From the IMG/VR virus record IMGVR_UViG_3300010155_000043, positions 1-31,843 of that record: a stretch of DNA of 31,843 nt, one strand, 5' to 3'. Source of the stretch: a virus. Shown here in pieces: positions 3,853 through 27,978 of this stretch (position 1 is the stretch's first letter; each line of letters begins with the position of its first letter). The position numbers were made by a program, and so were the translations under genes. The notes under the pieces were generated by a model, which had not been told where the DNA came from, searched no databases, and saw only the letters and a list, made by a program, of their open reading frames with translations.

Positions 3853-5726
3853 TGATGGCAGAAGTTAAAAGAGATGTAAAATATATTAATAAGGATTTCT
3901 CTGAATTCAGAACAAACCTTATTGAGTATGCAAAAAATTATTTCCCAAAGACGTATAATGATTTTAATGAAACATCACCGGGTATGATGTTTATTGAGAT
4001 GGCGTCATATATAGGAGATGTATTATCATATTATACAGATTATAATATGAAAGAGACAATGTTACATCATGCACAAGAAAAGAAGAATGTATATAATATT
4101 GCTCAAACATTTGGATATAAGCCTAAGCTAGCTTCATCAGCTAATGCTACAGTAGATGTGTTTCAGTTAGTACCAAACTCCGGTACAGGGGCCAGCTCAA
4201 GACCAGATTTTGATTATGCATTTACTCTAGAGAAGGGAGCTCAATTTAATACATCTACAAATATAGTATTTAGAACAACAACGCCAGTTAATTTTGCTCA
4301 CTCTAGCTCAACTTCACCGACTGATGTATCTGTATACCAGATTAATAACACTACTGGTCAACCAGAGCAATACTTATTAAAAAAATCAGTATCAACTATT
4401 AGTGGTGAGATAAAAACAAAAACAGTAACAGTAGGAAGCGCTGATCCGTACTTGAAAGTGCTAGTTGATGATAAAAATATAATAGGTATAGAGTCTATTG
4501 TTGATGGAGATGGAAATACGTGGTATGAAGTTCCGTATCTAGCACAGGATACTATATTCGGCGAAACTGTTAATTCAGAAGCTCAAGATCCTACATTAAG
4601 TGTAGGTGCTGTAAGCGCTCCTTATATATTAAAATTAATAAAAACTTCACGACGATTTATAACTCGAGTAACAGAAGATGATAAAATTGAGATACAGTTC
4701 GGTTCCGGTATATCATCAAATCCAGATGAAGAAATAATACCAAATCCAGATAACGTAGGATCACCTCTACCAGGTAATGTAAATAACTTAGATACCTCAT
4801 TTGATCCTGCAAACTTCTTATATACTAATACATACGGACAATCACCATATGATACTACATTAACAATTACGTATATTGTTGGATACGGATTAGATGCTAA
4901 TGTACCTAGTAAGACTATAACAAATGTTACATCTAAGACTGCTACGTTCGATGGTACTAAAACTCTATCACACGCATTGAAGCAAACAGCTGAAGATTCA
5001 CTCGAAATAAGTAATCCGCTACCTGCGACTGGAGGGACAAGTGTTGAGTCGTTAGATGAAATTAAAAATAATGCTCTAGCTAATTTTAGTACACAAAATA
5101 GAATGGTAACGAAAGAGGATTATGTTATTAGAGCTCTATCATTACCTAGTAAGTTTGGTAATATAACAAAAGCGTATATAGCATCAGATGAACAACTATC
5201 TGGTGACGATAAACCTATTAATAATCCGTTAGCAGTAAATATGTACGTTCTTGGATATGATAAAAATAAAAATCTAACAGCAGTAAATAATATTACTAAG
5301 CGTAATATTAAAACATATTTATCACAATATAGAATGCTGACAGATGCTATTAATATAAAAGACGGATATATTGTTAACTTTGGTATTGATTTTGAAATTA
5401 CATGCTTAGCTAATCGTAACTCACAATCAGTGTTATTGAAGTGTGTACAAGCTTTAAAAGATAAGTTTAGTATAGATAAGTTATCATTTAGTACACCGAT
5501 TATAACGAAAGACATATATATTGCGATAGCTAATGTTGATGGAGTACAATCTGTAGTAGATGTTAAGCTTATAAATTATTATGATGAAGATAATGGTTAT
5601 TCCGGTAATAAGTATTCATTTGAGTCTGCAACACATAAAGGGGTAATATACCCATCACTCGATCCTTCAGTATTTGAAATAAAATATCCAGACACTGATA
5701 TACGCGGTCGTGTAGTAACATATTAA
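3852..5726 (+). CDS. 6: Baseplate wedge protein gp6 (baseplate J-like)
   Basis: This 624-residue protein is close to T4 gp6 (660 aa). The N-terminus is diagnostic: KYINKDFSEFRTNLIEYAKN, NETSPGMMFIEMASYIGDVL and SYYTDYNMKETMLHHAQ, followed by the 'NVYNIAQTFGYKP' segment. A baseplate J-type core with 'FGSGI' lies near residue 277, and QNRMVTKEDYVIRALSLPSK near residues 415-434. gp6 dimers, together with gp7, build the wedge that triggers sheath contraction. Two tandem ATGs (3852 and 3855) are possible starts, and the first overlaps the gp25 stop. It is followed after 11 nt by the DNRLRE-like gene. Confidence 0.93.
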   Translation: MMAEVKRDVKYINKDFSEFRTNLIEYAKNYFPKTYNDFNETSPGMMFIEMASYIGDVLSYYTDYNMKETMLHHAQEKKNVYNIAQTFGYKPKLASSANATVDVFQLVPNSGTGASSRPDFDYAFTLEKGAQFNTSTNIVFRTTTPVNFAHSSSTSPTDVSVYQINNTTGQPEQYLLKKSVSTISGEIKTKTVTVGSADPYLKVLVDDKNIIGIESIVDGDGNTWYEVPYLAQDTIFGETVNSEAQDPTLSVGAVSAPYILKLIKTSRRFITRVTEDDKIEIQFGSGISSNPDEEIIPNPDNVGSPLPGNVNNLDTSFDPANFLYTNTYGQSPYDTTLTITYIVGYGLDANVPSKTITNVTSKTATFDGTKTLSHALKQTAEDSLEISNPLPATGGTSVESLDEIKNNALANFSTQNRMVTKEDYVIRALSLPSKFGNITKAYIASDEQLSGDDKPINNPLAVNMYVLGYDKNKNLTAVNNITKRNIKTYLSQYRMLTDAINIKDGYIVNFGIDFEITCLANRNSQSVLLKCVQALKDKFSIDKLSFSTPIITKDIYIAIANVDGVQSVVDVKLINYYDEDNGYSGNKYSFESATHKGVIYPSLDPSVFEIKYPDTDIRGRVVTY

Positions 5727-5737
5727 GGTAGCGTGAT

Positions 5738-6817
5738 ATGATTTATTCAATATTTCCATCAAGAGATGCAACAATATATGAAAACTCTGAGAGTTTAAAC
5801 ACTGGTATTGATGAAATACTTGAGTTAACAAAAATCGTATCTTCATCAAAACAGCCGGGTGTATCAAATACTAGGATTCTTATCGATTTTGATACTAGTG
5901 AGATATCTGCATCTGTTGCGTCTGGAGAGATTAGTGGATCAGATGGACTTTCACCTAAGTACTATTTAAAAGTATTTAATTCTATTCAAGACCAAGTACC
6001 TTATTCATATACTCTAGCAGCAGCTCCTATATCACAATCATGGGATATGGGTATAGGTAAATTACCGTATTATCCAAGTGTAGTAGAGGGTGCTAGTTGG
6101 AAATATAGAGATGGTCAAACAGCGGGTACACAGTGGAGTTCATCAGGCGGTACAACAGTAACGGAGTCAGGGTATGTAGTAACACAAGTATTTAATAATA
6201 CAACATATGATATTGAAATGGATGTGTCAACTATTATAACTAGCTCTTGGATTCAAGGGGCATTAGGATATCAAAACAACGGAATCTTAATACAGCGATC
6301 CGGCTCACAGGAAACAGATGGTACTAGGTATGGATCATTAAAATATTTCTCAAAAGAGACACATACTATATTTGCACCACGTCTAGAGGTTAGATGGAAT
6401 GATAGTCAATTTGCTACCGGATCACTAACTGCGTTGACAGGTGATTCAATAGGAGTGTTTACATCAAACTTACAAGGTGAATATAAAGAAGGAGCTAAAG
6501 CAAGAATTCGTTTATTAGGTAGAGAGTTGCACCCTGCAAAAGCATATACAACAACAGCTACCGCAGCTTCACCAAAATATTTACCTTCATCGTCATATTA
6601 CTCGATTGTAGATGTAGCTACAAATACGACTATAGTACCTTATAATACATCATATACAAAAATTAGTTTAGATAGCTCAGGTAACTACTTTAACTTCTGG
6701 ATGAATACACTCCTACCAGAGCGTGTATATAAAATAGAGGTTAGAGTTGATAGTAGACAATATGCTGGTCAACAAGAATACTTTACTTGTGATACTGTAT
6801 TTAAGGTTGTGAGATAA
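5738..6817 (+). CDS. Baseplate-associated structural protein with DNRLRE-like beta domain
   Basis: This 359-residue protein lies in the tail block between gp6 and the long gp7-like gene. The first 220 residues match the layout of DNRLRE/CBM-type beta-sandwich domains: SRDATIYE with NTGIDEILEL at residues 8-30, RILIDFD at 46-52, a Trp-marked stretch (SWKYRDG ... QW, about 120-133), NNGILIQRSGS at 180-190, and KETHTIFAPRLEVRW at 206-220. The remaining 140 residues are another beta-rich part. In bacteria DNRLRE domains occur in extracellular proteins. Here it would be a virion module on the baseplate. By position it could stand in for a peripheral wedge protein such as gp8, but no direct similarity is visible. 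Confidence 0.6.
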   Translation: MIYSIFPSRDATIYENSESLNTGIDEILELTKIVSSSKQPGVSNTRILIDFDTSEISASVASGEISGSDGLSPKYYLKVFNSIQDQVPYSYTLAAAPISQSWDMGIGKLPYYPSVVEGASWKYRDGQTAGTQWSSSGGTTVTESGYVVTQVFNNTTYDIEMDVSTIITSSWIQGALGYQNNGILIQRSGSQETDGTRYGSLKYFSKETHTIFAPRLEVRWNDSQFATGSLTALTGDSIGVFTSNLQGEYKEGAKARIRLLGRELHPAKAYTTTATAASPKYLPSSSYYSIVDVATNTTIVPYNTSYTKISLDSSGNYFNFWMNTLLPERVYKIEVRVDSRQYAGQQEYFTCDTVFKVVR

Positions 6818-6819
6818 TT

Positions 6820-8064
6820 ATGAAGATAAAATGGCAAAACATAGATTTATCAAAATATATGAAAGATATGTTTACCGTATCTGCTATGCCTATACCAGGA
6901 GCTACAAAAGAAGATACAGCTAGAGCAACTGAGAAGATGGTTGCTACTGAGGTTAAGCGAATTGAAGCGCAGAAAGGACGAGATGTAGTACTCATTAATG
7001 ATAGAGTATTCATAACAGATGTGGATGATAATAATAATGTAGTTCCAAGGTTAAATGAAGTTAGAGGATTAGATTACGACTATCTAAAAGATCATATCGA
7101 TGATACTATATATGAATTATTACCGCAACCACCTGAACTTCCAATTACACCGCCACCTGTGAGTGAGTTTGTAAATGCATTATGGGTTGCAAACTGGGGA
7201 ATGTTAGCTGATTTCGGTGGATCAACAGATCCAGATAAAGATATAGGTGGAGATTGGGTGAGACGAGATGCTCATGAGTGGCCTGCTAGATTCGGTATTA
7301 ACCCTGTATACAGATTTTTTACCGGTGATAATCCGCTATTCTACATACATAACCCTGTAAGCCATAGAGATCCAGAGACAAGTGAAGATGTAGTGCCAGA
7401 TGAGATAACGTGGAAGTTAGATGGTCAAGAAGTACATAAAGGTCGCTATCTGCAATTGTATGAAGTTTCACCTACAGAAGCTAGAAAAGCTTTAACAGTT
7501 GAAATTAAAAATTCAGCAGGTACCACGACGCAAACATTATTCTATGAGATTAAAGATTCAGATGATGAAGGAAGTATAGAGGGATTCTCAAGCACATATC
7601 AAGGTAGTTATTTCTACGATTCGAGTGCAGCTGATGGTAAAGGAAAAGCGATATTCCGTGAAGATGACAGATACGAGCCGAGGTGGGTTAAGTTCCGCGT
7701 AGAGTGGAACAATTATGGAAACGGTGAGAATAAGAAGCGGAAGTTCAGGAACGGTACACCGTCTGTTAAATTAGATGGAGTGGAGTTAAATAGGACAGGA
7801 GAGTTAGGAAGTAATACAGCAGGTAATACATATTCTAAGCAAAATGGTGACGAATTACAGAAGGATGGTCGATGGTATTATTTTGAAAAATCACCTGGCC
7901 CGATGACGTTAGAGATAGATTACAGGTTTAATTATAGAAGTGGTGGTAAGAAGAGACGTATTTTTAATAAAGTGGTAGAGCAAAATATAGCATTAGATTC
8001 ACCTAGAGATGGAGTAGTAGATTTAGGTGTATTACACGTAGGTAAGAGGGATGTAAAAAGATAA
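6820..8064 (+). CDS. Virion structural protein of unknown fold, baseplate region
   Basis: This 414-residue protein starts 3 nt after the previous stop. The N-terminal 100 residues are helical and charged. A proline-rich linker follows (QPPELPITPPP, residues 103-113), then a Trp-rich beta part with two Ig-like-looking segments (WKLDGQEVHKGRYLQLYEVS near residue 204; KVVEQNIALDSPRDGV near the end). The segment VEWNNYGNGENKKRKFRNG is unusually basic. There is no signal, membrane helix or enzyme motif. The last base of its stop is the first base of the next start (TAATG). The context makes it a tail/baseplate component. I do not recognise the family. Confidence 0.7.
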   Translation: MKIKWQNIDLSKYMKDMFTVSAMPIPGATKEDTARATEKMVATEVKRIEAQKGRDVVLINDRVFITDVDDNNNVVPRLNEVRGLDYDYLKDHIDDTIYELLPQPPELPITPPPVSEFVNALWVANWGMLADFGGSTDPDKDIGGDWVRRDAHEWPARFGINPVYRFFTGDNPLFYIHNPVSHRDPETSEDVVPDEITWKLDGQEVHKGRYLQLYEVSPTEARKALTVEIKNSAGTTTQTLFYEIKDSDDEGSIEGFSSTYQGSYFYDSSAADGKGKAIFREDDRYEPRWVKFRVEWNNYGNGENKKRKFRNGTPSVKLDGVELNRTGELGSNTAGNTYSKQNGDELQKDGRWYYFEKSPGPMTLEIDYRFNYRSGGKKRRIFNKVVEQNIALDSPRDGVVDLGVLHVGKRDVKR

Positions 8065-11000
8065 TGGCAAAATTGAGTAGATTTAAATTCAATATTAGTA
8101 ACTACCTCGCTTCATCAACACCAACGGTGATGCCTGCTGTTAGTATAGTTCCAAACGCACCATCTATTGATGTCTTAACACCTCGTGTAGCAAGAATGAG
8201 TGCAGATATTTTAAAGTCTCCATTTGTATATAAAGCCCCACATTTTGGTGAGTCTATAGCAAAGGGAGATGAGCCTGATCCAGAAGCACTTGTAGATGAT
8301 AATAGTATTATATATCTAAACTCTGATATACATGATGATATGCATTATGTACCGTTACAACGCTCTCAAAATGAAGATTTAGACTACGTATTACTTGAAG
8401 CTTATAGTGGTAATAAGAGGATTGGATCAGTAAGCGTAAGCATCTCAGATCCTATCATCACAGTGAAGGGTGATCAAGTAAGTATAGATGTATTATCACT
8501 TGTTCGAGATAAGCTAGGTCTCGGTAACGGGCAATATGATATCCGAGTTTGCTTTTACAGAAATTATATATACGGTGAAGAAGATACATCAGATACAGGT
8601 AAAGTTCAAGTAGAAGAGATCTCTCCATCTCGGTATGAGATTAGAGTAAAGGCTTCGCTACCAAAATATTATAATTCACTTGAAGATTGGGGCAGTGTAT
8701 CGCCTAAACAGGATGAGTTTAATTATGATGTAATATGGCCGGCTATACTTAAAGACTCTAGTAGACAATTAAATATACTATCAACAAATTGGACATCTTT
8801 AACTTATGAAGAAGATGCACTCGGTCAAGATCATATAATATTTAGGTTAACGGAGCCATTACCGCGTAATGTAAAGGTTGGAAACCAATTCCAAATAACA
8901 CGTGATATAATATCTCCATATGTTATACCTGTTGTTGTTGATCTTGAGTCAAGTGTAGCGGACGAGTTTAATCAATTACGAGGTCCAAACTTTAAAGCTA
9001 TTGATATAAAAGATAAGCCAGCTAGAGAGACTAAGTTTGAAACGTGGGATAGTATAATTGGAACAGACACTCTCACTAAGCAGAGAATTATCGATAAGTA
9101 TATAAGTGGATCTGATAATTCATTACTGAATATAGATCACCGTAAATATGATAACTTCGTTCACTTTAGTTCAGCTGAAGAGAGAATAAAAAACTTTAAA
9201 TATAAGTTAGAGCTTATAGAGTACTATACATCACAATCTAATGTTGTATCAGTTGATCAGTCAGGTAAAGACGAAACAGCTGCAACAGGGTCTATAGAGT
9301 TCTTACAAAATAAAGCGTCATATGATTCAAAGAAGACGGGTATAATAAGTGGATTTGATGAATATGAAAAATATTTATATTACGAATCTCACTCTACAGA
9401 AGAAACTACGTATGGAACATTTCCAGCAGCAACATGGCCAAAGAGTACATCTACAAAACCACATACTCTTGTATCCACAACAGGATCAGAGGCGATTACT
9501 TGGTACGCTTCACAATTAGTAACTGCGTCACTTTATGATGATACAAATGTAAATATATTACGCAATACAATACCACAACACATATTACAAGATGGTAATA
9601 GCGATAGCTACGTGTTATTTGTAGATATGGTAGGGCAGCACTTTGATACTATTTATAATTACATATCACAAATACCAAATGTTGTAGATAGAGAAGAGTC
9701 TATATATGACGGTATGAGTAAGGATTTAATATATGATACCGCTAAATCATTTGGATGGTCTCTACAATCTGGATTCGATACTAGTAAGTTGTGGGAATAT
9801 GTACTAGGAACAGATGAAACTGGTAGTTATAGTACCAGTACAAACGAAGTTAGAGCGGAGTCATATTCACATGAAGATATTGAAAAGCAAACGTGGAAGC
9901 GTATTGTAAATAATATACCTTACCTATTAAAAACTAAGGGTACTGCACGTGGAATAAAAGCATTACTCAACACATATGGTATACCTAATACAATACTACA
10001 AATACAAGAATACGGTGGCCCAGTTCCAACACGACCGCTAAATACTCGACGTGAGATTGAAAAGTTTTCATACGCATTAGACTTTTCAGGATCTAGATGT
10101 ATTGCAACGTCTCATAGTGTAATTGATGTTGATAAGCCGGGATCTGACTTCACAAACACTGATGCAGATCGCTACACGTCAATGTATGAGTTTAGATTTG
10201 ATACATCAACTACACAGAGCATGCATTTAGTTTCCGCAGAAGAAACATCAAGTATAAATGGTGGTATTGGAGGTGTAGGTAAGTTTGAGGTAATATTAGA
10301 GCACTCAAGTTCTGCATCTGCAACGTCGAGTTACAGTAAGTACGGTAGACTACAGTTTAAGATAACATCTGGTAGTGGTGCAGAAACAACAATGTCAACA
10401 GACTATGCACCGTTTTATGATAATGATTGGTGGAACGTATCCTTCGGAACACAAGAGTATATAACAGGACCGAGTGATACAAAACGTTCTGTATTTGAAA
10501 TAAGATACGCTAAAATAGGCGAACATGCAGATGATATAACACATAGCGGCTCTACTACATTTACTATACCTACAGCAGTTGCTACTAAAAAATATTATAA
10601 CGGAACATGGGGACATTCAGGACGCATGCTCTGGGGAGGAACTGGTTCCGGGGACTCAACTGCAACTTATAACGGATTCGTAGGATCAATGCAAGAGGTT
10701 CGTGGATGGGCAGAGCACATTAGTGAAAAATCATTCCATCAACACGCATTATCACCTATATCTATAACTGGTGATACAGTTCAGATGGCGTATAATGATT
10801 TAATAATGCGACATCCGCTAGGTACTAATAATAAAAAATATAATCACTCTACTACAACATCATTAACAGTTACAGAGTCGATTCCAAATACACTGTATGC
10901 TGCACCATTTACAACTGCAGCGCATACAACAGATGCGACTTTTATAGGATGGCCTGATGCTGTATCATATAGTAATAAGTCGGAAACGTATTACGTAAAT

Positions 11001-11870
11001 GTACCTAATACGATCGGTGCAACAGCGAACGATTCTAAAATACGTATAGAGGATAATAAACTACGTGTAGATCAATTATCATCGGATAAGAGTTTTGAAG
11101 TTTCATCATTTGACTCTAACCCGCTAGATACAGAGCAAATAACAGTAGCGTTTTCACCACAAGATCAGATAGATATAGATATTGCTATGCAGTTCGGTGG
11201 ATTCTCACTCGATGATTATATAGGTGACCCACGTGATAGGTTTAGTACCAAGTATACATCGTTACGCGATATTCAAAACTTATACTATAAAAAATATGAT
11301 GATAGATATAATATTTGGGCTTTCATTAGAATGCTAAAATATCTTAATACAGGATTCTTTAAGCAAATTGAAGCTCTATTACCTGCTCGAGCAGACGCTG
11401 TAGTAGGTGTATTAATCCGACCAAGTATGTTAGAGAGATCTAAAGTAAAGGATATAGGCGTTGTATCATTAACATCTAATAATTACTATGGTACTATAAG
11501 CGAACCTGTTAGTGGTATATCTGGTAGATCTTTAAGTCAACGATATAACAATACAGATTTCTTAACATATACGACAACTATTAATATGATTAAATCAAGC
11601 TCTGCATTACCGCAGATAGATCTTATTGATAAATATACAAGTGGATCACAATCTACATTCTCTACCGGACTTACACGATTAATACGTACAGGTACTCGCG
11701 TATCATCAACAGATTTCAACACACCTTCTGCTGATACAATAGATGGGTCACCGGTTGTTGAATTTATACTTACTAATCCAAATAGATTATATTCAACTGA
11801 TATTTTATCCGGCAATGATGGTGGAAATACACCAGGTATGCCAGCAGGTGGAGATCTAATAGTGAGATAA
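8064..11870 (+). CDS. Large baseplate protein with gpI/gp7-like core and LamG-like domain
   Basis: This 1268-residue protein is the largest of the baseplate block. Residues about 612-645 (NNIPYLLKTKGTARGIKALL, then NTYGIPN) carry the 'TKGT..G...LL..YG' signature of P2 gpI-type tail proteins, the functional counterpart of T4 gp7. Residues about 665-890 read like a concanavalin/LamG jelly roll (YALDFSGSRC ... YNGFVGSMQEVRGWAEHI). The C-terminal part holds a helical segment (IWAFIRMLKYLNTGFFKQIE, about residues 1085-1104) and LIRPSMLERSKV. gp25, gp6 and a gpI-like protein in order mirrors P2 W-J-I, so a gp7 wedge role is reasonable. Size is near T4 gp7 (1032 aa) plus one added domain. No direct gp7 similarity was tested. 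Confidence 0.55.
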   Translation: MAKLSRFKFNISNYLASSTPTVMPAVSIVPNAPSIDVLTPRVARMSADILKSPFVYKAPHFGESIAKGDEPDPEALVDDNSIIYLNSDIHDDMHYVPLQRSQNEDLDYVLLEAYSGNKRIGSVSVSISDPIITVKGDQVSIDVLSLVRDKLGLGNGQYDIRVCFYRNYIYGEEDTSDTGKVQVEEISPSRYEIRVKASLPKYYNSLEDWGSVSPKQDEFNYDVIWPAILKDSSRQLNILSTNWTSLTYEEDALGQDHIIFRLTEPLPRNVKVGNQFQITRDIISPYVIPVVVDLESSVADEFNQLRGPNFKAIDIKDKPARETKFETWDSIIGTDTLTKQRIIDKYISGSDNSLLNIDHRKYDNFVHFSSAEERIKNFKYKLELIEYYTSQSNVVSVDQSGKDETAATGSIEFLQNKASYDSKKTGIISGFDEYEKYLYYESHSTEETTYGTFPAATWPKSTSTKPHTLVSTTGSEAITWYASQLVTASLYDDTNVNILRNTIPQHILQDGNSDSYVLFVDMVGQHFDTIYNYISQIPNVVDREESIYDGMSKDLIYDTAKSFGWSLQSGFDTSKLWEYVLGTDETGSYSTSTNEVRAESYSHEDIEKQTWKRIVNNIPYLLKTKGTARGIKALLNTYGIPNTILQIQEYGGPVPTRPLNTRREIEKFSYALDFSGSRCIATSHSVIDVDKPGSDFTNTDADRYTSMYEFRFDTSTTQSMHLVSAEETSSINGGIGGVGKFEVILEHSSSASATSSYSKYGRLQFKITSGSGAETTMSTDYAPFYDNDWWNVSFGTQEYITGPSDTKRSVFEIRYAKIGEHADDITHSGSTTFTIPTAVATKKYYNGTWGHSGRMLWGGTGSGDSTATYNGFVGSMQEVRGWAEHISEKSFHQHALSPISITGDTVQMAYNDLIMRHPLGTNNKKYNHSTTTSLTVTESIPNTLYAAPFTTAAHTTDATFIGWPDAVSYSNKSETYYVNVPNTIGATANDSKIRIEDNKLRVDQLSSDKSFEVSSFDSNPLDTEQITVAFSPQDQIDIDIAMQFGGFSLDDYIGDPRDRFSTKYTSLRDIQNLYYKKYDDRYNIWAFIRMLKYLNTGFFKQIEALLPARADAVVGVLIRPSMLERSKVKDIGVVSLTSNNYYGTISEPVSGISGRSLSQRYNNTDFLTYTTTINMIKSSSALPQIDLIDKYTSGSQSTFSTGLTRLIRTGTRVSSTDFNTPSADTIDGSPVVEFILTNPNRLYSTDILSGNDGGNTPGMPAGGDLIVR

Positions 11871-15432: not shown

Positions 15433-16101
15433 ATGATTATATATAAGACAACAAATATTATTAATGGTAAATACTATATTGGTCAGGATTCTAATAACAA
15501 TCAGGACTACCTTGGTAGTGGAGTTATTTTAAATAAAGCTATTAAAAAATATGGTAGGTCATGCTTTAAAAAGGAAATTATTGAGTATTGCTCATCCTCT
15601 GCAGAGCTTAATGATAGAGAGCGATTTTGGATAAAGAAATTATCTCCTGAATATAATATAGCACCTGGAGGTGCAGGTGGTGATTGTTACACAGGTAATC
15701 CGAATTTAGATAAAATTAAAGCTAATTTAAGTGCGTTAGGTATACAGCGCTGGCAATGTGATTCGTATAAGCGTAAAATGTCTGAAGCAGCTAAGCAGCG
15801 ATATTCACAGCCATTAGCTAGGCAAGCTACAAGTATTGCAACGAAGGTAGCGTGGTCTAAAAAAGATAGGACAGGTATTAATAGTTCTCGCTGGTCAGGA
15901 TACTGCTATTTATATAATAATAATAAGGATTTTATATGTATGTATGATACAATGAATATAGCTGCTAAAATGTTAAAAGTGGATGTTGCAACAATACGTA
16001 AATCGAGTAATACGCGATCTCATGTGAGTGGTGGTAAATATAAAGGTTATTTTTTTATTGTAAGTAAGGAAGTGTATGGTGAGAAGCCACTGGTTATATA
16101 A
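15433..16101 (+). CDS. Free-standing GIY-YIG homing endonuclease with NUMOD-type DNA-binding modules
   Basis: This is a 222-residue mobile gene of the T4 Seg/I-Tev class. The N-terminal 80 residues are the nuclease: IIY (2-4), YYIG (14-17), YLGSG (26-30) and the Glu63 in DRERFWIKKL. I do not see an arginine at the usual I-TevI-like place, so activity is not certain. A NUMOD3-like helix (SYKRKMSEAAKQRYS, 111-125) and a NUMOD1-like helix-turn-helix (MYDTMNIAAKMLKVDVATIR, 170-189, then GGKYKGYFF) would recognise DNA. Its ATG abuts the stop of the LamG-like gene, and its 3' end overlaps the next gene by 26 nt. It would cut sites in phages lacking the gene and spread itself. Confidence 0.85.
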   Translation: MIIYKTTNIINGKYYIGQDSNNNQDYLGSGVILNKAIKKYGRSCFKKEIIEYCSSSAELNDRERFWIKKLSPEYNIAPGGAGGDCYTGNPNLDKIKANLSALGIQRWQCDSYKRKMSEAAKQRYSQPLARQATSIATKVAWSKKDRTGINSSRWSGYCYLYNNNKDFICMYDTMNIAAKMLKVDVATIRKSSNTRSHVSGGKYKGYFFIVSKEVYGEKPLVI

Positions 16102-16522
16102 AGGAAAGCCTCTAAAGGAGGCTCCTGAAGAATATTTCGGTTTTGTTTATTTAATAAAAAATAAAAAAACAGGTAAAAAATATATTGGTCGAAAGTATTT
16201 CGGTACAACTCGTCGTGTGAAGGTTAAAGGAAAGAAGCGACGTAAAGTTATACGTAAAGAGTCTGATTGGGCTTCATATCAAGGCTCATCAAAATCACTG
16301 CAGCAAGATATACAAAAATTAGGTAGTAAGAGTTTTGAGTTTACTATTCTAATAATGGGTGAAACAAAGGGACAAGTTAATTACTTAGAAGAAAACATAC
16401 ATCATAGGTTTCACGTGTCTGCAAGTGATGACTTTTATAATGACTGTATCGGTCCTCGGAGATTTGCTAAAGTACGTTTTGATGAGAGTGTAGCTAAAAA
16501 AATTAACAAAATAGTTGTGTAG
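16076..16522 (+). CDS. GIY-YIG domain protein of marine T4-like type
   Basis: This 148-residue protein has AAGGA (16066-16070) 5 nt before the ATG, which lies inside the upstream homing endonuclease. The domain is visible as GFVYLIKN (22-29), KKYIGRKYF (34-42), WASYQGSSKSLQQDI (65-79) and the Glu in YLEENIHHRF (103-112). An insert of basic residues (RRVKVKGKKRRKVIRK) lies between the two motif halves. The start segment WLYKGK is, from memory, typical of small GIY-YIG proteins that many marine T4-like phages keep at conserved places, often called Seg-like. It has no extra NUMOD modules, so it may be a resident nuclease rather than a recent invader. Its DNA target and role are unknown. Confidence 0.75.
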   Translation: MVRSHWLYKGKPLKEAPEEYFGFVYLIKNKKTGKKYIGRKYFGTTRRVKVKGKKRRKVIRKESDWASYQGSSKSLQQDIQKLGSKSFEFTILIMGETKGQVNYLEENIHHRFHVSASDDFYNDCIGPRRFAKVRFDESVAKKINKIVV

Positions 16523-16548: not shown

Positions 16549-17460
16549 ATGGGATTATTAAGTATACTAGAGACCGTATTAGGTAGGTCAAAGAAGACGT
16601 CTGGAAATAACGTTTCGTTTAAATGTCCGTGTTGCAACCATTATAAGCATAAGCTAGAGATTGATCTATCAACTCAATATTGGCATTGCTGGGTATGTAA
16701 CGCTAAAGGGCGTAAACTATATACGTTATTTAAGAAAGCTAATGCATCTAAGGTTCAAATAGATGATTTAAATAGAGAGGTAGGTAGCTATGTGTCAGTG
16801 CGTGAGACTACCTCTAAACAAGGGGTAATGCTACCTCCAGAGTTCCAACTAATACTTAATGGTAATAAGAATAATCCAGAGTTTAGAAATGCATTACATT
16901 ACTTAAAAAGTCGAGGTATAACTAGAGAAGATATTGTTAGGTATAATATAGGCTACTGCGAAACAGGTGATTATAGTGGCATGATTATAGTACCTAGTTA
17001 TGATGAAAACGGTATGTTAAACTTCTTTACAGGTAGATCATATTATAAGGATGCAACGTTTAAACATAAGAATCCAAAAGTATCTAAAGATATTATTGGG
17101 TTTGATTTACTAGTTAACTGGAGTGAACCTATAACAATAGTTGAGGGCGTTTTTGATGCAATTGCTGTAAAGCGAAACGCTATTCCGCTATTTGGTAAGA
17201 TTATACTAGATAAGCTAAAGTCGTCAATAATAAATAATAAAGTTAAGACAGTGTATATTGGCTTAGATTCAGACGCAAGAGTTAAAGCGTTAGATATATG
17301 TCAGTATCTTATAAATAATGGAGTAACTGTATATCTTATAGAGTTAGGAGAAAAAGATCCTAGTGAGTTAGGATATCCAGGATTTACAGAATTATATAAT
17401 ACAGCTAGCCCGCTAACAGGTAGTGGGTTAATGATGAAGCAGATGGGAATAATGATTTGA
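16549..17460 (+). CDS. 61: DNA primase, T4 gp61-like
   Basis: This 303-residue protein is slightly shorter than T4 gp61 (342 aa). The N-terminal zinc finger of the CHC2 type is clear: CPCCNH (C26, C29) with WHCWVC (C47, C50). The TOPRIM catalytic part shows VEGVFDA (E199, D203) and GLDSDA (D240, D242), which bind the catalytic metal ions. It makes RNA primers for the lagging strand together with a gp41-type helicase, which is not in this window. A 26-nt gap precedes it. Its stop TGA overlaps the start of the nuclease gene (TTGA), so the two are translationally coupled. Confidence 0.92.
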   Translation: MGLLSILETVLGRSKKTSGNNVSFKCPCCNHYKHKLEIDLSTQYWHCWVCNAKGRKLYTLFKKANASKVQIDDLNREVGSYVSVRETTSKQGVMLPPEFQLILNGNKNNPEFRNALHYLKSRGITREDIVRYNIGYCETGDYSGMIIVPSYDENGMLNFFTGRSYYKDATFKHKNPKVSKDIIGFDLLVNWSEPITIVEGVFDAIAVKRNAIPLFGKIILDKLKSSIINNKVKTVYIGLDSDARVKALDICQYLINNGVTVYLIELGEKDPSELGYPGFTELYNTASPLTGSGLMMKQMGIMI

Positions 17461-20400
17461 GCATAAAAAATATTGATGTTGGATTTGATACATTAGATAA
17501 AATACTACATATCGCGGATATACATATACGTAATTATCAGAGACATAAAGAGTATAGAGAAGTATTTAAAGAATTATATAAAGGTGTAGATAGCTTACCA
17601 GATAACGCTATAGTATATGTTGGTGGAGATATCGTACATAATAAAACTGATATATCACCTGAGTTAATATCACTAACATCTGAATTCTTAAAGAAGTTAG
17701 CTGACAGGAGACATACGATTGTTATCACAGGTAACCATGATACTAATTTAAATAACACGAGTAGACTGGATGCATTAACGCCTATTATTAATAATCTAAA
17801 TCATCCTAACTTACATTACTTAAAAGACTCTGGTGTATATAAGATTGCGGATACACACTTCACTGTGTTTAGTATATTTGATCCACCATCTGAATTTATT
17901 AAAGCAGATAGTTTTAAAGGGTCAACAAAAATTGCACTCTTCCATGGACCCGTTAAATCATCTAAAACAGATATTGGGTATGAAGTAACTGGGGAAGAAT
18001 ATACTGCTGATTTATTTGATGGATATGATTTATCTTTATTAGGTGATATACATAAACGTCAATATGTTGATAAAGCAAAAACGATATGCTATCCCGGGTC
18101 ACTAATTCAACAAAACTTCGGTGAAGCTTTCAAGCACCATGGATACGCTATATGGGATGTAGCTAAACGCAAACCAAAATATACTGATGTACCGAATAAG
18201 TATGGCTTCTATACTATCGACGTGAAGGATGGCATTCTACCTAATATTGATGATATACCAAAGCAGCCGCGATTAAGAATTAGAACTACAAATACAACAG
18301 AAGCAGAGTTAAAAAGCATCATTAAAGATGTAAAGAAAAAATGTCGTGCAAATGATATAATTACTATCAAGCAAGATAAGATTAAAGGTACAGCTAGCAC
18401 ATCTAGAGCATTGACGAGAGATGTAAGAGATGTTAATTATCAGAATAAGCTACTAGAAGAGTACATTGAAAAGAATCATGATGTAGATTCAATACTATTA
18501 CGTAAGATAAAATCTATAAATAAAGCATTGAATGGAATGTTGCTCAACGAAGATATAACAAGAAATGTTACATGGAACATAAAGCAATTTGAATTTTCGA
18601 ACATGTTTAGTTACGGTGGCGGTAATAAGATAAATTTTGAAAAAGCAAAAGATGTTATTGGATTATTTGCTCCTAATCATGCAGGTAAATCTGCAATATT
18701 AGATGCATTAGCGTTCTGTATATTTGATAGATGTAGTAGAGGTAAATCAGCGTCAGATATAATGAATAATACAAAAAATACGTTCGAGTGTAAATTACAG
18801 TTTGAAATCGATGGTGTTGATTATTATATAGAGCGAAAGGCAAAGCGAATACTCAAAGGCTGGATGAAAGGTAAGGTTAGAGTTGATGTTGATTTTTGGT
18901 ATGTTGATGAAGATGGAAATAATGTATCTTTAAACGGAGAGCAAAGACGTGATACAGATAAATCTATACAAGGGTATCTCGGTGAGTATGATGATTTTGT
19001 TCTTACTGCACTATCTGTACAGAATAATAATACAGGATTTATTGATAAATCACAGTTTGAGAAGAAGGATTTATTATCACAGTTTTTAGATATAACTGTT
19101 TTCGAGCAGCTATATGCATTAGCAAATGATGAAATACGTGACGTACAAGCATTATTAAAAGATTTTGGTAATACTGATTACTCACAGCAACTTATCGACG
19201 TTGAGGATAAATTAGAAAAAAGTGAAGAGCGATATACAGAGTATCAGAAGCAGAAATCAGATATTGAATCACGTATAAAGGATTTGGGTAAAGCCATTTT
19301 ATCGCTAACCAAATCGCTACATAAAAAAGTGCCATTAGATAATATTGATTTATTAGATGTAGAGAGAGATAATGTATTATCGCAAGTAAGTGTAATTAAT
19401 GATCGATTAGAGTCAGATGAGCAAGTCGCATTGAAGAATAAGCAAACAATACTTGATTGCACTGTAGAGGTAGATAGATTAGAGAGTGAAGATGTTGAGC
19501 AGAAATATAAAGAGTTATTAGAATCAAGAGAAGATTTATCAGCACTTAATCGTCAGAAAGAGTTGCTAAAAAAAGATGTTCAGCATAAGCAAGAGCGTTT
19601 AGATGCAATTGGTCAGTTTGATCCAAATTGTAGTTTTTGTCAAGATAATGATTTTGTTAAAACTGCAAATGCAACACGAGATAGTTTAGAGGAAGATAAG
19701 GCTGTGGCTCATAAGCTAATGTCTGATATAAAAGCTGTAAGTGAGCAATTAGATACATATGTTGGAGTAAGCGGTAAGATAGATGAGTTGAGAGAGTATA
19801 GACATACTATATCTAGAATACAAAGAGAGCGTGATTTAGGTCGAATTGCATACTATAAAGCGAAAGAGTCGCGAGATAAATTATTACAGCGTGTTACAGA
19901 TATAGATACACAAGTAAAGCGATATCACGAAAATTTACAAGCTATAGAAGAAAACTCTGTTATTAATAAAGAGATTCAGAATCGTGATGAAGAGCAAGAC
20001 GCTCTTAAAGAAGAGTTAAATACTATTAATAATAAGCGTCAAATGTGTTATAGTGATATTAAAGTGTGTAAGACAGATATACGTACTATAAACAGTCATA
20101 TAAAGAAAGCGCATGAGTTAGAGGTGAGATTAAAAGCGTATGAATATTATTTAGATGCAATAAAGAGAGATGGTATCCCGTATGAGATTATATCTGACAC
20201 ACTACCTTATATTCAAGAAGAAGTTAATAATATATTATCTCAAGTCGTTGATTTTGAATTAGAATTCGATGTTGATGGAAAGAATATATTAACATATATA
20301 AAGTATGGTGATAATACTTGGTCATTAGAGATGACATCTGGAATGGAGAAGTTTATATCATCTCTTGCTATTCGTGTTGCACTTATTAATATATCTAACT

Positions 20401-20606
20401 TACCGAGACCAACATTCTTAGCTATTGATGAGGGATTTGGTAATTTAGATTCTACAAATATAAATTCAATGTCTATGCTTTTCGACTACCTTAAAACAGA
20501 GTTTGATTTCATATTAATAATATCACACATTGACATCATGAGAGATATGGTAGATGATGTTATTGAAATATCTAAACAAAGTACATTAAGTAACGTTATT
20601 TACTAA
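17457..20606 (+). CDS. 47/46: Fused Mre11-Rad50-type recombination nuclease (gp47-gp46 fusion)
   Basis: This is a 1049-residue single chain. Residues 1 to about 330 are a gp47/SbcD-type metallophosphoesterase: ADIH (D21, H23), GGDIVHNK (D58), GNHD (92-95), FHGP (H163) and GDIHK (196-200). From about 375 follows a gp46/SbcC-type ATPase: Walker A APNHAGKS (405-412), two long coiled-coil arms, a zinc hook CSFC (C725, C728), a TSGMEK signature (960-965), and Walker B LAIDEGFGNLD (D991, E992). The frame is open throughout. In T4 these are two genes. The complex resects DNA ends to start recombination-dependent replication. The start is TTG 17457 in a TTGA overlap with the primase stop, and no ATG precedes the catalytic motifs in this frame. 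Confidence 0.93.
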   Translation: MSIKNIDVGFDTLDKILHIADIHIRNYQRHKEYREVFKELYKGVDSLPDNAIVYVGGDIVHNKTDISPELISLTSEFLKKLADRRHTIVITGNHDTNLNNTSRLDALTPIINNLNHPNLHYLKDSGVYKIADTHFTVFSIFDPPSEFIKADSFKGSTKIALFHGPVKSSKTDIGYEVTGEEYTADLFDGYDLSLLGDIHKRQYVDKAKTICYPGSLIQQNFGEAFKHHGYAIWDVAKRKPKYTDVPNKYGFYTIDVKDGILPNIDDIPKQPRLRIRTTNTTEAELKSIIKDVKKKCRANDIITIKQDKIKGTASTSRALTRDVRDVNYQNKLLEEYIEKNHDVDSILLRKIKSINKALNGMLLNEDITRNVTWNIKQFEFSNMFSYGGGNKINFEKAKDVIGLFAPNHAGKSAILDALAFCIFDRCSRGKSASDIMNNTKNTFECKLQFEIDGVDYYIERKAKRILKGWMKGKVRVDVDFWYVDEDGNNVSLNGEQRRDTDKSIQGYLGEYDDFVLTALSVQNNNTGFIDKSQFEKKDLLSQFLDITVFEQLYALANDEIRDVQALLKDFGNTDYSQQLIDVEDKLEKSEERYTEYQKQKSDIESRIKDLGKAILSLTKSLHKKVPLDNIDLLDVERDNVLSQVSVINDRLESDEQVALKNKQTILDCTVEVDRLESEDVEQKYKELLESREDLSALNRQKELLKKDVQHKQERLDAIGQFDPNCSFCQDNDFVKTANATRDSLEEDKAVAHKLMSDIKAVSEQLDTYVGVSGKIDELREYRHTISRIQRERDLGRIAYYKAKESRDKLLQRVTDIDTQVKRYHENLQAIEENSVINKEIQNRDEEQDALKEELNTINNKRQMCYSDIKVCKTDIRTINSHIKKAHELEVRLKAYEYYLDAIKRDGIPYEIISDTLPYIQEEVNNILSQVVDFELEFDVDGKNILTYIKYGDNTWSLEMTSGMEKFISSLAIRVALINISNLPRPTFLAIDEGFGNLDSTNINSMSMLFDYLKTEFDFILIISHIDIMRDMVDDVIEISKQSTLSNVIY

Positions 20607-20668: not shown

Positions 20669-22948
20669 ATGTTTAAAAGGCAGAATACATATCTAGGCTT
20701 ACACAAGTATCCTATACTTATAACAGATAACGCTGATTATTCAGAGTATTTCAAAGTAAGTGATCTGCCACTAGAACTAACCTCAGGTAAAAATTTCTTC
20801 AAATTATATGGTAATAGCGAGTTATTAGCTAATGAATCTGAAATTCTTATTGAAGTATTAGATTCTAACAATGCTCCTATATATCATCATGTTAATAGAT
20901 ACAGAGATCCATCAGGTCGTAGAGTAATATCTATATATGTTTATGACGATACACCAGCTGGAAACGCTAGAATTACTATTCTTGGTCAAGCGAAGTATCG
21001 TCCAAATGGATCTTCAATACCGAGTAATTGGAAAGATAAGCATAATGTTAAGTGGTCAACAGTTGTACCGCTACAACCTCACAAGCAAAATAATTCTGAG
21101 ATAATATTTGACGTTATACCTGGAGTAAAGATTCAGGAGATTAATCGTTGTTATGCAGAGTATGATTTTGTAATCGGTAATAAGGCATATCAATCAGTTA
21201 GTGGAGAAGGAACAATTACTAATTACAGCTCTCATGCAGGAGGAGAGGGTGTAGCCGAACTAACATTCGCAGGCCATATACCAGGCGGACCTGGTGGCGG
21301 TGGATTTAATCCTAAAGTGCGGGAAATATCACTCGCTGTAAACGGATTAACAACCGCTAACTTTCAATATTGGGTTGATAATTTTATTAGTTATGGTGAT
21401 GGGCAAAGCGTAGTATTCTTAAATCCGTATAAGTGGGAAAAGAGAGGTACTGCAACAGCAGGTAGATATGGACATATTCAAACTTGGCCGCACGACTATT
21501 GGCCAACATGGAATCCAACTGTACTGTATGTGAAAGATTCTAACACACTTACAGTAACACCACTCACTATACCAGTCAAAGCTATAAAAAATGATGGTAG
21601 TTATACGATTCAAGAGATACATCCCAACTTTCTAATACCTACCGCAGATGGAACATATACTAATTTCACTACATCATATCATCAAACAGGAGATACATCT
21701 GCTGCAACACTAAACTCACAATCGTTCGCTAACATTACATTAAAGAATCTCGATCCAATCGCGGGTGATGTATATAAAATAAAGACATATATGAAGAGTC
21801 AAGGATTCGGACCATATACACTGATTGGTGAAGATTTAGTTGAGGATAATAACTTATTAAGTGACCCGTCTAGTCTAACTCCGTATGGTAGTGCTGGACA
21901 CTTCGTTGATCAAACTGTAGTTGATAATCTTTGGGAACTTGATGTACCCGGAAGTATGACTGCCGGAGCAACCCAATCTAACTTCCCTATTATGGGAGGT
22001 GTAACAATAACGGGTAGTGAAACGATAACTAACACAGCTTATGAGTATTACGGTGGACCTGTTAACTATACACGTCCATGGTCTACTAAAGGCATTTTAT
22101 TTAAAAGTAAGCGTTCCATTGACGTGTATAGTGGTAATACATATAGTATCACATTCGAAGCTGCAGCAGATAAAGCACCTGGTCAAGATCAACCTAGTAT
22201 AATGGAGGTATGGATCTCAGGATCTGCAGTAACCCCTGGTCCACATGACTTGGCGGCGAATACACGGTACATTGTTACAACTCCTAACGGTACAGGATTA
22301 GGTAGACGTGTAGGGGTATTAAAGGCAGATTTATATAAAGATGGTAACCGCGAAGCGATGGAAGCTTTAGGTAGTAATATTACAACGAATAGAATCCATA
22401 GCGCTATGAGCTCTATAGCTGCAGCGCGTGGTGAAGGCGATCTTCAGGAAGCAATACGGTTTACAGAGCACAACGCTCTCGCTTCATCTCAAATACCTGG
22501 AGTTGCGAATAATAATCCATATAGATTAACATTGCCAGGCGGGTTTACGCCAAATACGCAGCAAGTTGTACCTGGTATAGTTAAAAAGAAAGTTGTACAG
22601 ATTAATTACACACCTGAAGAAGATGGTGATTTAAATATTCGTTTCAATGTAATATTTGGTAAATGGCATATAGGAAATGTTGAGATTAAAGGGGATCGCC
22701 AAACAGGGTTTACTCCAAATCATACATTCCAAGAATTCCCTGTACCAACAGCTCAAGAAAATGATGTACTTGATTTTAAATTTGAATTCTACAATCGTCG
22801 TAATGAAGAAGCTAATATCGCGCTAACTTTAAATAGCGTGGACTTCTCAGGTAGTAATTTATATATAGATGGAATAAATAATCAACTACCAGGTACAATA
22901 AATATTGGAGATGGTCTTATAATGGAAGGATTCGACGGGACACTGTAA
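20669..22948 (+). CDS. Tail fibre/tip structural protein of marine T4-like type
   Basis: This 759-residue protein has a weak upstream ribosome binding site (GGGG). Its N-terminal 120 residues (ADYSEYFKVSDLPLELTSGK, ILIEVLDSNNAPIYHHVNRY, RVISIYVYDDTPAGNARITI) form a domain I recall from fibre or tip proteins of marine T4-like phages. A glycine-rich turn (GHIPGGPGGGG) lies near residue 210. The rest is beta-rich, with a helical part near residues 555-600 (EAMEALGSNITTNRIHSAMS). It is the first gene of the adhesion block and lies 2 nt before the giant fibre gene, so it probably connects the fibre to the baseplate or caps it. No enzyme motif was seen. Confidence 0.65.
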   Translation: MFKRQNTYLGLHKYPILITDNADYSEYFKVSDLPLELTSGKNFFKLYGNSELLANESEILIEVLDSNNAPIYHHVNRYRDPSGRRVISIYVYDDTPAGNARITILGQAKYRPNGSSIPSNWKDKHNVKWSTVVPLQPHKQNNSEIIFDVIPGVKIQEINRCYAEYDFVIGNKAYQSVSGEGTITNYSSHAGGEGVAELTFAGHIPGGPGGGGFNPKVREISLAVNGLTTANFQYWVDNFISYGDGQSVVFLNPYKWEKRGTATAGRYGHIQTWPHDYWPTWNPTVLYVKDSNTLTVTPLTIPVKAIKNDGSYTIQEIHPNFLIPTADGTYTNFTTSYHQTGDTSAATLNSQSFANITLKNLDPIAGDVYKIKTYMKSQGFGPYTLIGEDLVEDNNLLSDPSSLTPYGSAGHFVDQTVVDNLWELDVPGSMTAGATQSNFPIMGGVTITGSETITNTAYEYYGGPVNYTRPWSTKGILFKSKRSIDVYSGNTYSITFEAAADKAPGQDQPSIMEVWISGSAVTPGPHDLAANTRYIVTTPNGTGLGRRVGVLKADLYKDGNREAMEALGSNITTNRIHSAMSSIAAARGEGDLQEAIRFTEHNALASSQIPGVANNNPYRLTLPGGFTPNTQQVVPGIVKKKVVQINYTPEEDGDLNIRFNVIFGKWHIGNVEIKGDRQTGFTPNHTFQEFPVPTAQENDVLDFKFEFYNRRNEEANIALTLNSVDFSGSNLYIDGINNQLPGTINIGDGLIMEGFDGTL

Positions 22949-27375: not shown

Positions 27376-27978
27376 ATGCCAGCACCACCATCCATATCCG
27401 GAATACAAGAACATGAATTATCGCACGGAGGAGCATATCAATTTCTCTCAGATTCTGATGGAGGAATTACTCTCATAAACACAAGTTTCCCGTTCGGATT
27501 TACGACTGGGGTAAATCAAGAATGTGCAATTAAAGGTACATTACAGGTAGGTGTCACTTCGGCTCATGCACTAAGTTGTGCTGGAGATGTTATTGCTTTT
27601 GCCTCCGATGCACGACTAAAAATGAACATCACTGATATAGATCACCCTTTAGAGAAGCTTAATAAGTTACGAGGAGTCTATTATAATTGGAATAAAAAAT
27701 CTATAGATGTCGGATTTAATACAACTATATCGCAGGAGCCTGAAATCGGAATGATTGCACAGGAGTTAGAAGAAGTCATACCTACTGCTGTTAAGAGAGC
27801 TCCGTTTGATCATAAAGGAAATAGATCAATATATAACGATAAACACGTCAGAATAGATGGTGAAGATAGTCCATACAAAACAATCCAGCTAGAAAAGGTT
27901 GTACCATTATTAATAGAATGTATAAAAGAACAGCAAGTGCAGATTAATGAGCTGAAACTAAAGATGGAGAGTAAGTAG
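27376..27978 (+). CDS. Small fibre-tip protein with S74 intramolecular chaperone domain
   Basis: This 200-residue protein has AAGGA 8-12 nt before its ATG. Residues 77-200 match the Peptidase_S74 chaperone of endosialidase: FASDARLKMNITDID with probable cleavage before S77, then LNKLRGVYYNWNKK, EIGMIAQELEEVIP and a C-terminal helix (YKTIQLEKVVPLLIECIKEQ, VQINELKLKM) that trimerises. In known cases this domain sits at the end of a spike or fibre, helps it fold as a trimer, then cuts itself off. Here only 76 residues precede it, in a separate gene. It would fold a very short trimer tip, or act next to the giant fibre, whose gene ends 12 nt upstream. The stop overlaps the next GTG. Confidence 0.85.
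   Translation: MPAPPSISGIQEHELSHGGAYQFLSDSDGGITLINTSFPFGFTTGVNQECAIKGTLQVGVTSAHALSCAGDVIAFASDARLKMNITDIDHPLEKLNKLRGVYYNWNKKSIDVGFNTTISQEPEIGMIAQELEEVIPTAVKRAPFDHKGNRSIYNDKHVRIDGEDSPYKTIQLEKVVPLLIECIKEQQVQINELKLKMESK

Follow-up and report, generated by a model that had tools for sequence, protein, structure and literature searches.

A fused Mre11-Rad50 gene in a tailed phage, ordinary within its own phage group and of a kind described in 2011

The canonical Mre11-Rad50 complex is already composed of two Mre11 and two Rad50 subunits. The nuclease and the ATPase come from two genes in E. coli (SbcCD) and archaea, and likewise in T4 (gp47/gp46), SPO1, the T5-type pairs (D12/D13) and the Staphylococcus exonuclease pairs, where small genes often lie between them. 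T4 gp46/gp47 is an ATP-stimulated processive nuclease (PMC13402864) and is thought to carry out the resection of double-strand breaks (PMC3016280). Mre11/Rad50 fusions were reported in 2011 from Mimivirus (R555), Bacillus phage 0305phi8-36, five bacteria and six eukaryotes (Yoshida, Claverie and Ogata, PMC3175470). That study found R555-like genes to be abundant in viral-fraction aquatic metagenomes and already saw them on marine scaffolds with phage primases, with the joining confirmed in no more than a few sequences from the environment; it also noted an Asp in R555 at the position of P. furiosus His206 and deduced a linker of 9-12 residues from the T. maritima complex (PMC3175470). Our literature search found neither subsequent experiments on Mre11-Rad50 fusion proteins nor biochemistry on the fused branch described here.

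The window, by which we mean the whole stretch of DNA analysed (31,843 nucleotides, a 31.8-kb fragment), comes from a tailed phage that carries genes for a baseplate and tail fibres, and contains one SbcD-like match. An initial annotation of the letters alone had read Mre11-like and Rad50-like subunits as joined in one polypeptide, and this was confirmed. The frame at 17457-20606 on the plus strand is open for 1049 codons with zero internal stops, and both halves were assigned by Pfam (Metallophos, residues 15-200, E 4.8e-11; AAA_23, 381-608, E 1.2e-11) and by PHROG (SbcD-like, 15-355, E 3.8e-31; SbcC-like, 280-1048, E 3.3e-48). A complete calcineurin-like nuclease, with capping and Rad50-binding domains (about residues 14-360), is followed by a linker of about 11 residues (361-371). 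Residues 372-1049 form a complete ATPase of the Rad50/SbcC type, including its coiled coil and CxxC hook. All of this lies in a single frame rather than in the separate genes of the T4 type. As the 67 aligned homologues keep the catalytic columns invariant, a chance resemblance is excluded. The features of the locus are as follows.

16549..17460, plus strand: DNA primase gene, conserved upstream neighbour, its stop overlapping the fusion start (TTGA); PHROG DNA primase, E 6e-39
17457..20606, plus strand: fused Mre11-Rad50 (SbcD-SbcC) gene, 1049 aa, TTG start; from the ORF, Pfam and PHROG
17496..18374, plus strand: Mre11/SbcD nuclease and capping domain, residues 14-306; from the AlphaFold2 model against 7dog_B
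18042..18056, plus strand: motif V GDIHK (196-200), with D197 at the site of a metal-ligand His in canonical Mre11; from sequence and alignments
18432..18536, plus strand: two-helix segment 326-360, candidate Mre11 Rad50-binding helix-loop-helix; from DSSP on the model and the T. maritima alignment
18537..18569, plus strand: linker between the Mre11 and Rad50 parts, residues 361-371; from the model and alignments
18669..18692, plus strand: Walker A APNHAGKS (405-412); from sequence and the alignment of relatives
19095..20162, plus strand: predicted coiled coil, residues 547-902; from the model
19629..19640, plus strand: zinc hook CSFC (725-728); from sequence and the alignment of relatives
20334..20348, plus strand: ABC signature TSGME (960-964); from sequence and the alignment of relatives
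20415..20432, plus strand: Walker B FLAIDE (987-992); from sequence and the alignment of relatives

The TTG start and the primase stop share bases (TTGA, 17457-17460), and as the previous in-frame stop lies at 17421-17423, there is no in-frame ATG, GTG or TTG upstream of it. By a mechanical rule, 62 of 119 distinct related frames have ATG as their first start and 55 have TTG. The PHROG models of the SbcD/SbcC families are 967, 989 and 1376 positions long, which suggests that fused members may already be inside these families. An Rfam scan of the window gave zero matches.

The folds of both halves were predicted with an AlphaFold2 model built from 67 sequences (mean pLDDT 82); the overall pTM was 0.47, a middling value at which the model does not establish how one half sits against the other. 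Residues 14-306 of the model matched S. aureus SbcD (7dog_B) with Z 24.9 and rmsd 3.3 over 273 aligned residues, and residues 373-1049 matched the head of E. coli SbcC (7yzo_D) with Z 29.5 and rmsd 3.2 over 349, residue 373 pairing with SbcC residue 1. Helices predicted at 326-340 and 345-360 occupy the site of the Rad50-binding helix-loop-helix of Mre11, and the segment up to about residue 360 aligns to the C-terminus of T. maritima Mre11 (aligned to its residue 376). Thus, in the model and the alignment, a capping domain and a helix-loop-helix precede the linker, whose length fits the 9-12 residues of Yoshida et al. 2011. The best full-length viral fold matches were giant-virus proteins, for example from Tupanvirus, Harvfovirus and Catovirus; residues 372-1049 dominated the match list, so that the absence of other matches to the Mre11 part carries no meaning.

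Compared by its published description, Mimivirus R555 shares with the window protein, as do its aquatic homologues, the order of domains in one chain, the Asp at the P. furiosus H206 position and a similar short linker; unlike the 1049-aa protein of this tailed phage, R555 has 1351 aa and a longer coiled coil. An annotated and cultured phage, Microcystis phage Mel-JY01, encodes a fused protein of 1066 aa (WWT39521.1) that is about 40% identical and is also preceded by a primase and a GIY-YIG gene, but there an extra small gene (7789-7962 of our locus L059) lies between primase and fusion. The T4, SPO1, T5-type and Staphylococcus pairs have both domains, the motifs and the inferred function in common with the fusion and differ in being two genes. 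E. coli SbcCD and archaeal Mre11-Rad50 share the folds of both halves (Z 23-29), with only about 16-22% identity in the structural alignments.

Every motif listed in the initial annotation was found at the residue given. In the nuclease half these are D21/H23, GGD with D58, GNHD (92-95), H163 and GDIHK (196-200), and in the ATPase half APNHAGKS (405-412), C725/C728, SGME (961-964), LAIDEG from 988 and SHID (1023-1026), so that Walker A, CxxC hook, signature, Walker B, D-loop and H-loop are all present. The catalytic, Walker, signature and hook residues were invariant or nearly so in the 67 aligned sequences. The claim that all metallophosphoesterase motifs are there stands, as motifs I-V (D, H, D, NH, H, xxH) are present and conserved, but it overlooked that one canonical metal-ligand His is an Asp, D197. 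The Ala at the start of Walker A, which had been pointed out as a departure from the usual Gly, is likewise real, but it is no peculiarity of this protein: A405 is kept in more than 90% of the aligned relatives, in which N407, G410, K411 and S412 are invariant, and nearly all distinct Walker A variants among relatives start with Ala, whereas those of T4 and E. coli start with Gly.

GDIH at motif V was invariant in the 67 sequences, whereas the proteins of T4, SPO1, P-SSM2 and Staphylococcus, Lactobacillus and Bacillus phages have GH[FY]H and T. maritima has GHIH. The window protein thus carries the Asp of the R555-like fusions. We rejected this Asp as an exclusive mark of fusion, since the T5-type D12 proteins, which come from two-gene systems, have GDLH, and the residue therefore does not strictly track fusion. 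With D197 in place of a metal-ligand His, the enzyme may depart from canonical Mre11 in its nuclease activity or in its preferred metal. It is unlikely that the invariant Asp and the Walker A Ala set the fused branch functionally apart, with a different use of metals, a differently coupled ATPase, and nuclease and ATPase acting only in cis. Another reading is that the nuclease half is degenerate and chiefly has a structural or DNA-binding part to play, which would make the protein for the most part an ATP-driven DNA tether. Such a role would agree with an invariant D197 where the Mre11 proteins of T4, SPO1, P-SSM2 and Staphylococcus phages have His; however, D21, D58, N93, H94, H163 and H199 are invariant or nearly so in the 67 sequences, as is H23 in 23 sequences, Asp is also a good metal ligand, and its occurrence in the T5-type D12 proteins (GDxH) makes it a recurring natural variant. 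We consider this improbable.

Of the 115 distinct loci that had sufficient sequence upstream, 112 carried a primase homologue as the immediate upstream neighbour of the fusion, mostly no more than about 230 bases away, and at 0.6 and 1.6 kb in two loci; the other three were the divergent fusion L061 and two two-gene controls. Another end-directed task, such as degradation of host DNA or the cutting of palindromes and hairpins, could be the main one instead of recombination-dependent replication, as SbcCD has an affinity for hairpins and the annotation of T4 gp46/gp47 includes host-DNA degradation. The conserved linkage to a primase in a replication operon points to replication, which makes such a main task very improbable, and the roles are not exclusive.

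The protein is, with high probability, a single-chain Mre11-Rad50 (SbcCD) enzyme that processes DNA ends in a tailed phage, belongs to the R555-like fused proteins, which are common across aquatic viruses, and works as T4 gp46/gp47 does; we infer this activity and role from homology and from the replication operon with the primase directly upstream. In the mechanism we propose, two chains would form a dimer, with contacts between their Rad50 heads as well as between their Mre11 domains. ATP would close the Rad50 heads on DNA ends, which zinc hooks and coiled coils would tether, while each chain's own helix-loop-helix and short linker would hold its Mre11 part beside the base of the Rad50 coiled coil. 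ATP hydrolysis would be coupled to the nuclease, and the Mre11 part would resect the end to 3' single strands for recombination-dependent replication, as in T4. The fusion does fix a 1:1 ratio of the two parts, as had been stated, but with a canonical complex that is 2:2 anyway this makes little difference; the fusion would leave this composition as it is and link the expression and inheritance of both parts.

Relatives were collected as 57 loci from a protein query, the best 80 of at least 593 matching stretches from an alignment query, and four in prokaryote assemblies, which we infer to be phage contigs. At least 593 viral-contig stretches encode relatives, and those retrieved were fused. 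Both the nuclease motifs and Walker A, with no stop between them, were found in 109 of the 119 distinct related frames, a count that describes the fused branch that served as query and so does not give the share of fusions among all phages. The other ten comprised six pieces cut at contig ends (L048, L049, L050, L055, L057 and L142), two two-gene controls (L062 and L063), one gene with an insertion (L060) and L061 (LR756501, a 735-kb phage record), a long divergent fusion that missed the motif filter because it has GNHE instead of a GNHD-type motif. The frameshift or stop that had been proposed as a check at the junction was looked for and excluded. That a lost stop or frameshift in assembly or sequencing merely joined adjacent gp47-like and gp46-like genes is scarcely credible, since many independent assemblies, with more than 100 distinct sequences between them at 31-79% identity, have the same frame open over the linker, as does Mel-JY01, and the sole frameshift noted in a relative sits near residues 815-831, away from the junction.

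In a collection of named phages, 434 records matched at E 1e-5, and in only nine of them did a single stretch span 80% of the query. Most of the 434 were Staphylococcus, Listeria, Bacillus, Proteus and Vibrio (T5-like) records, which appeared two-gene wherever inspected. Exactly one SbcD-like match, always within the fused frame, was present in nine of the ten large virus records of relatives (89-171 kb), and the match in the tenth was below the family threshold. A Halobacteriovorax assembly had a fused copy and, elsewhere, separate SbcD-like (411 aa) and SbcC-like (1092 aa) frames. In a tree of Rad50 heads, the two-gene forms of T4, SPO1, P-SSM2, Lactobacillus and Erwinia fell apart from the fused group; the number of fusion events was not derived from this tree because of its long branches (L061, Kaldavass, T4).

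The initial interpretation was therefore correct in its observation of a fusion and of both halves; it missed D197, and it made no estimate of rarity. The fusion is not rare: such fusions are standard in close relatives, an outcome that the initial annotation had itself named as a refutation, and the kind was published in 2011. The fusion is ordinary within its own phage group and alone opens no long-standing question. What the locus and its relatives add is well-supported evidence that a fused Mre11-Rad50, beside a primase, is what aquatic tailed phages of one large and mostly uncultured group normally carry. A single-chain enzyme could also suit structural work on the coupling of nuclease and ATPase.

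Several minor observations were made. Directly before the primase, the window has two ORFs of GIY-YIG (SegE-like) endonucleases (15433-16522), and the GIY-YIG gene of Mel-JY01 is at the matching place. A 200-aa stand-alone ORF at 27376-27978, with the intramolecular chaperone of endosialidase domain (Peptidase_S74), follows shortly after a tail fibre ORF of 1470 aa. Two large ORFs, at 8064-11870 (1268 aa) and 20669-22948 (759 aa), had no PHROG or Pfam match. The relative with the frameshift (L010, around 6000-6060) has it at an A-rich run inside the coiled coil, which is likely an indel error. In L060 (LR756508.1, a 484-kb phage record), about 1 kb at 4601-5670 splits the fused gene directly after GDIHKRQ and holds an endonuclease ORF with an HNH-type PHROG match and a TnsA-like nuclease domain. 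The interruption had zero Rfam intron matches and its borders do not read as an intein; an intron, a split gene and an insertion are candidates. Finally, Vibrio phage 1.031.O (MG592415.1, L164 3983-7147) encodes a very divergent Mre11-Rad50 fusion of 1054 aa (AUR83013.1), annotated only as 'coil containing protein', which carries GNHD, GDIH, GSIGSGKT, CPTC and LSGGQ and may represent a separate, independent fusion event.
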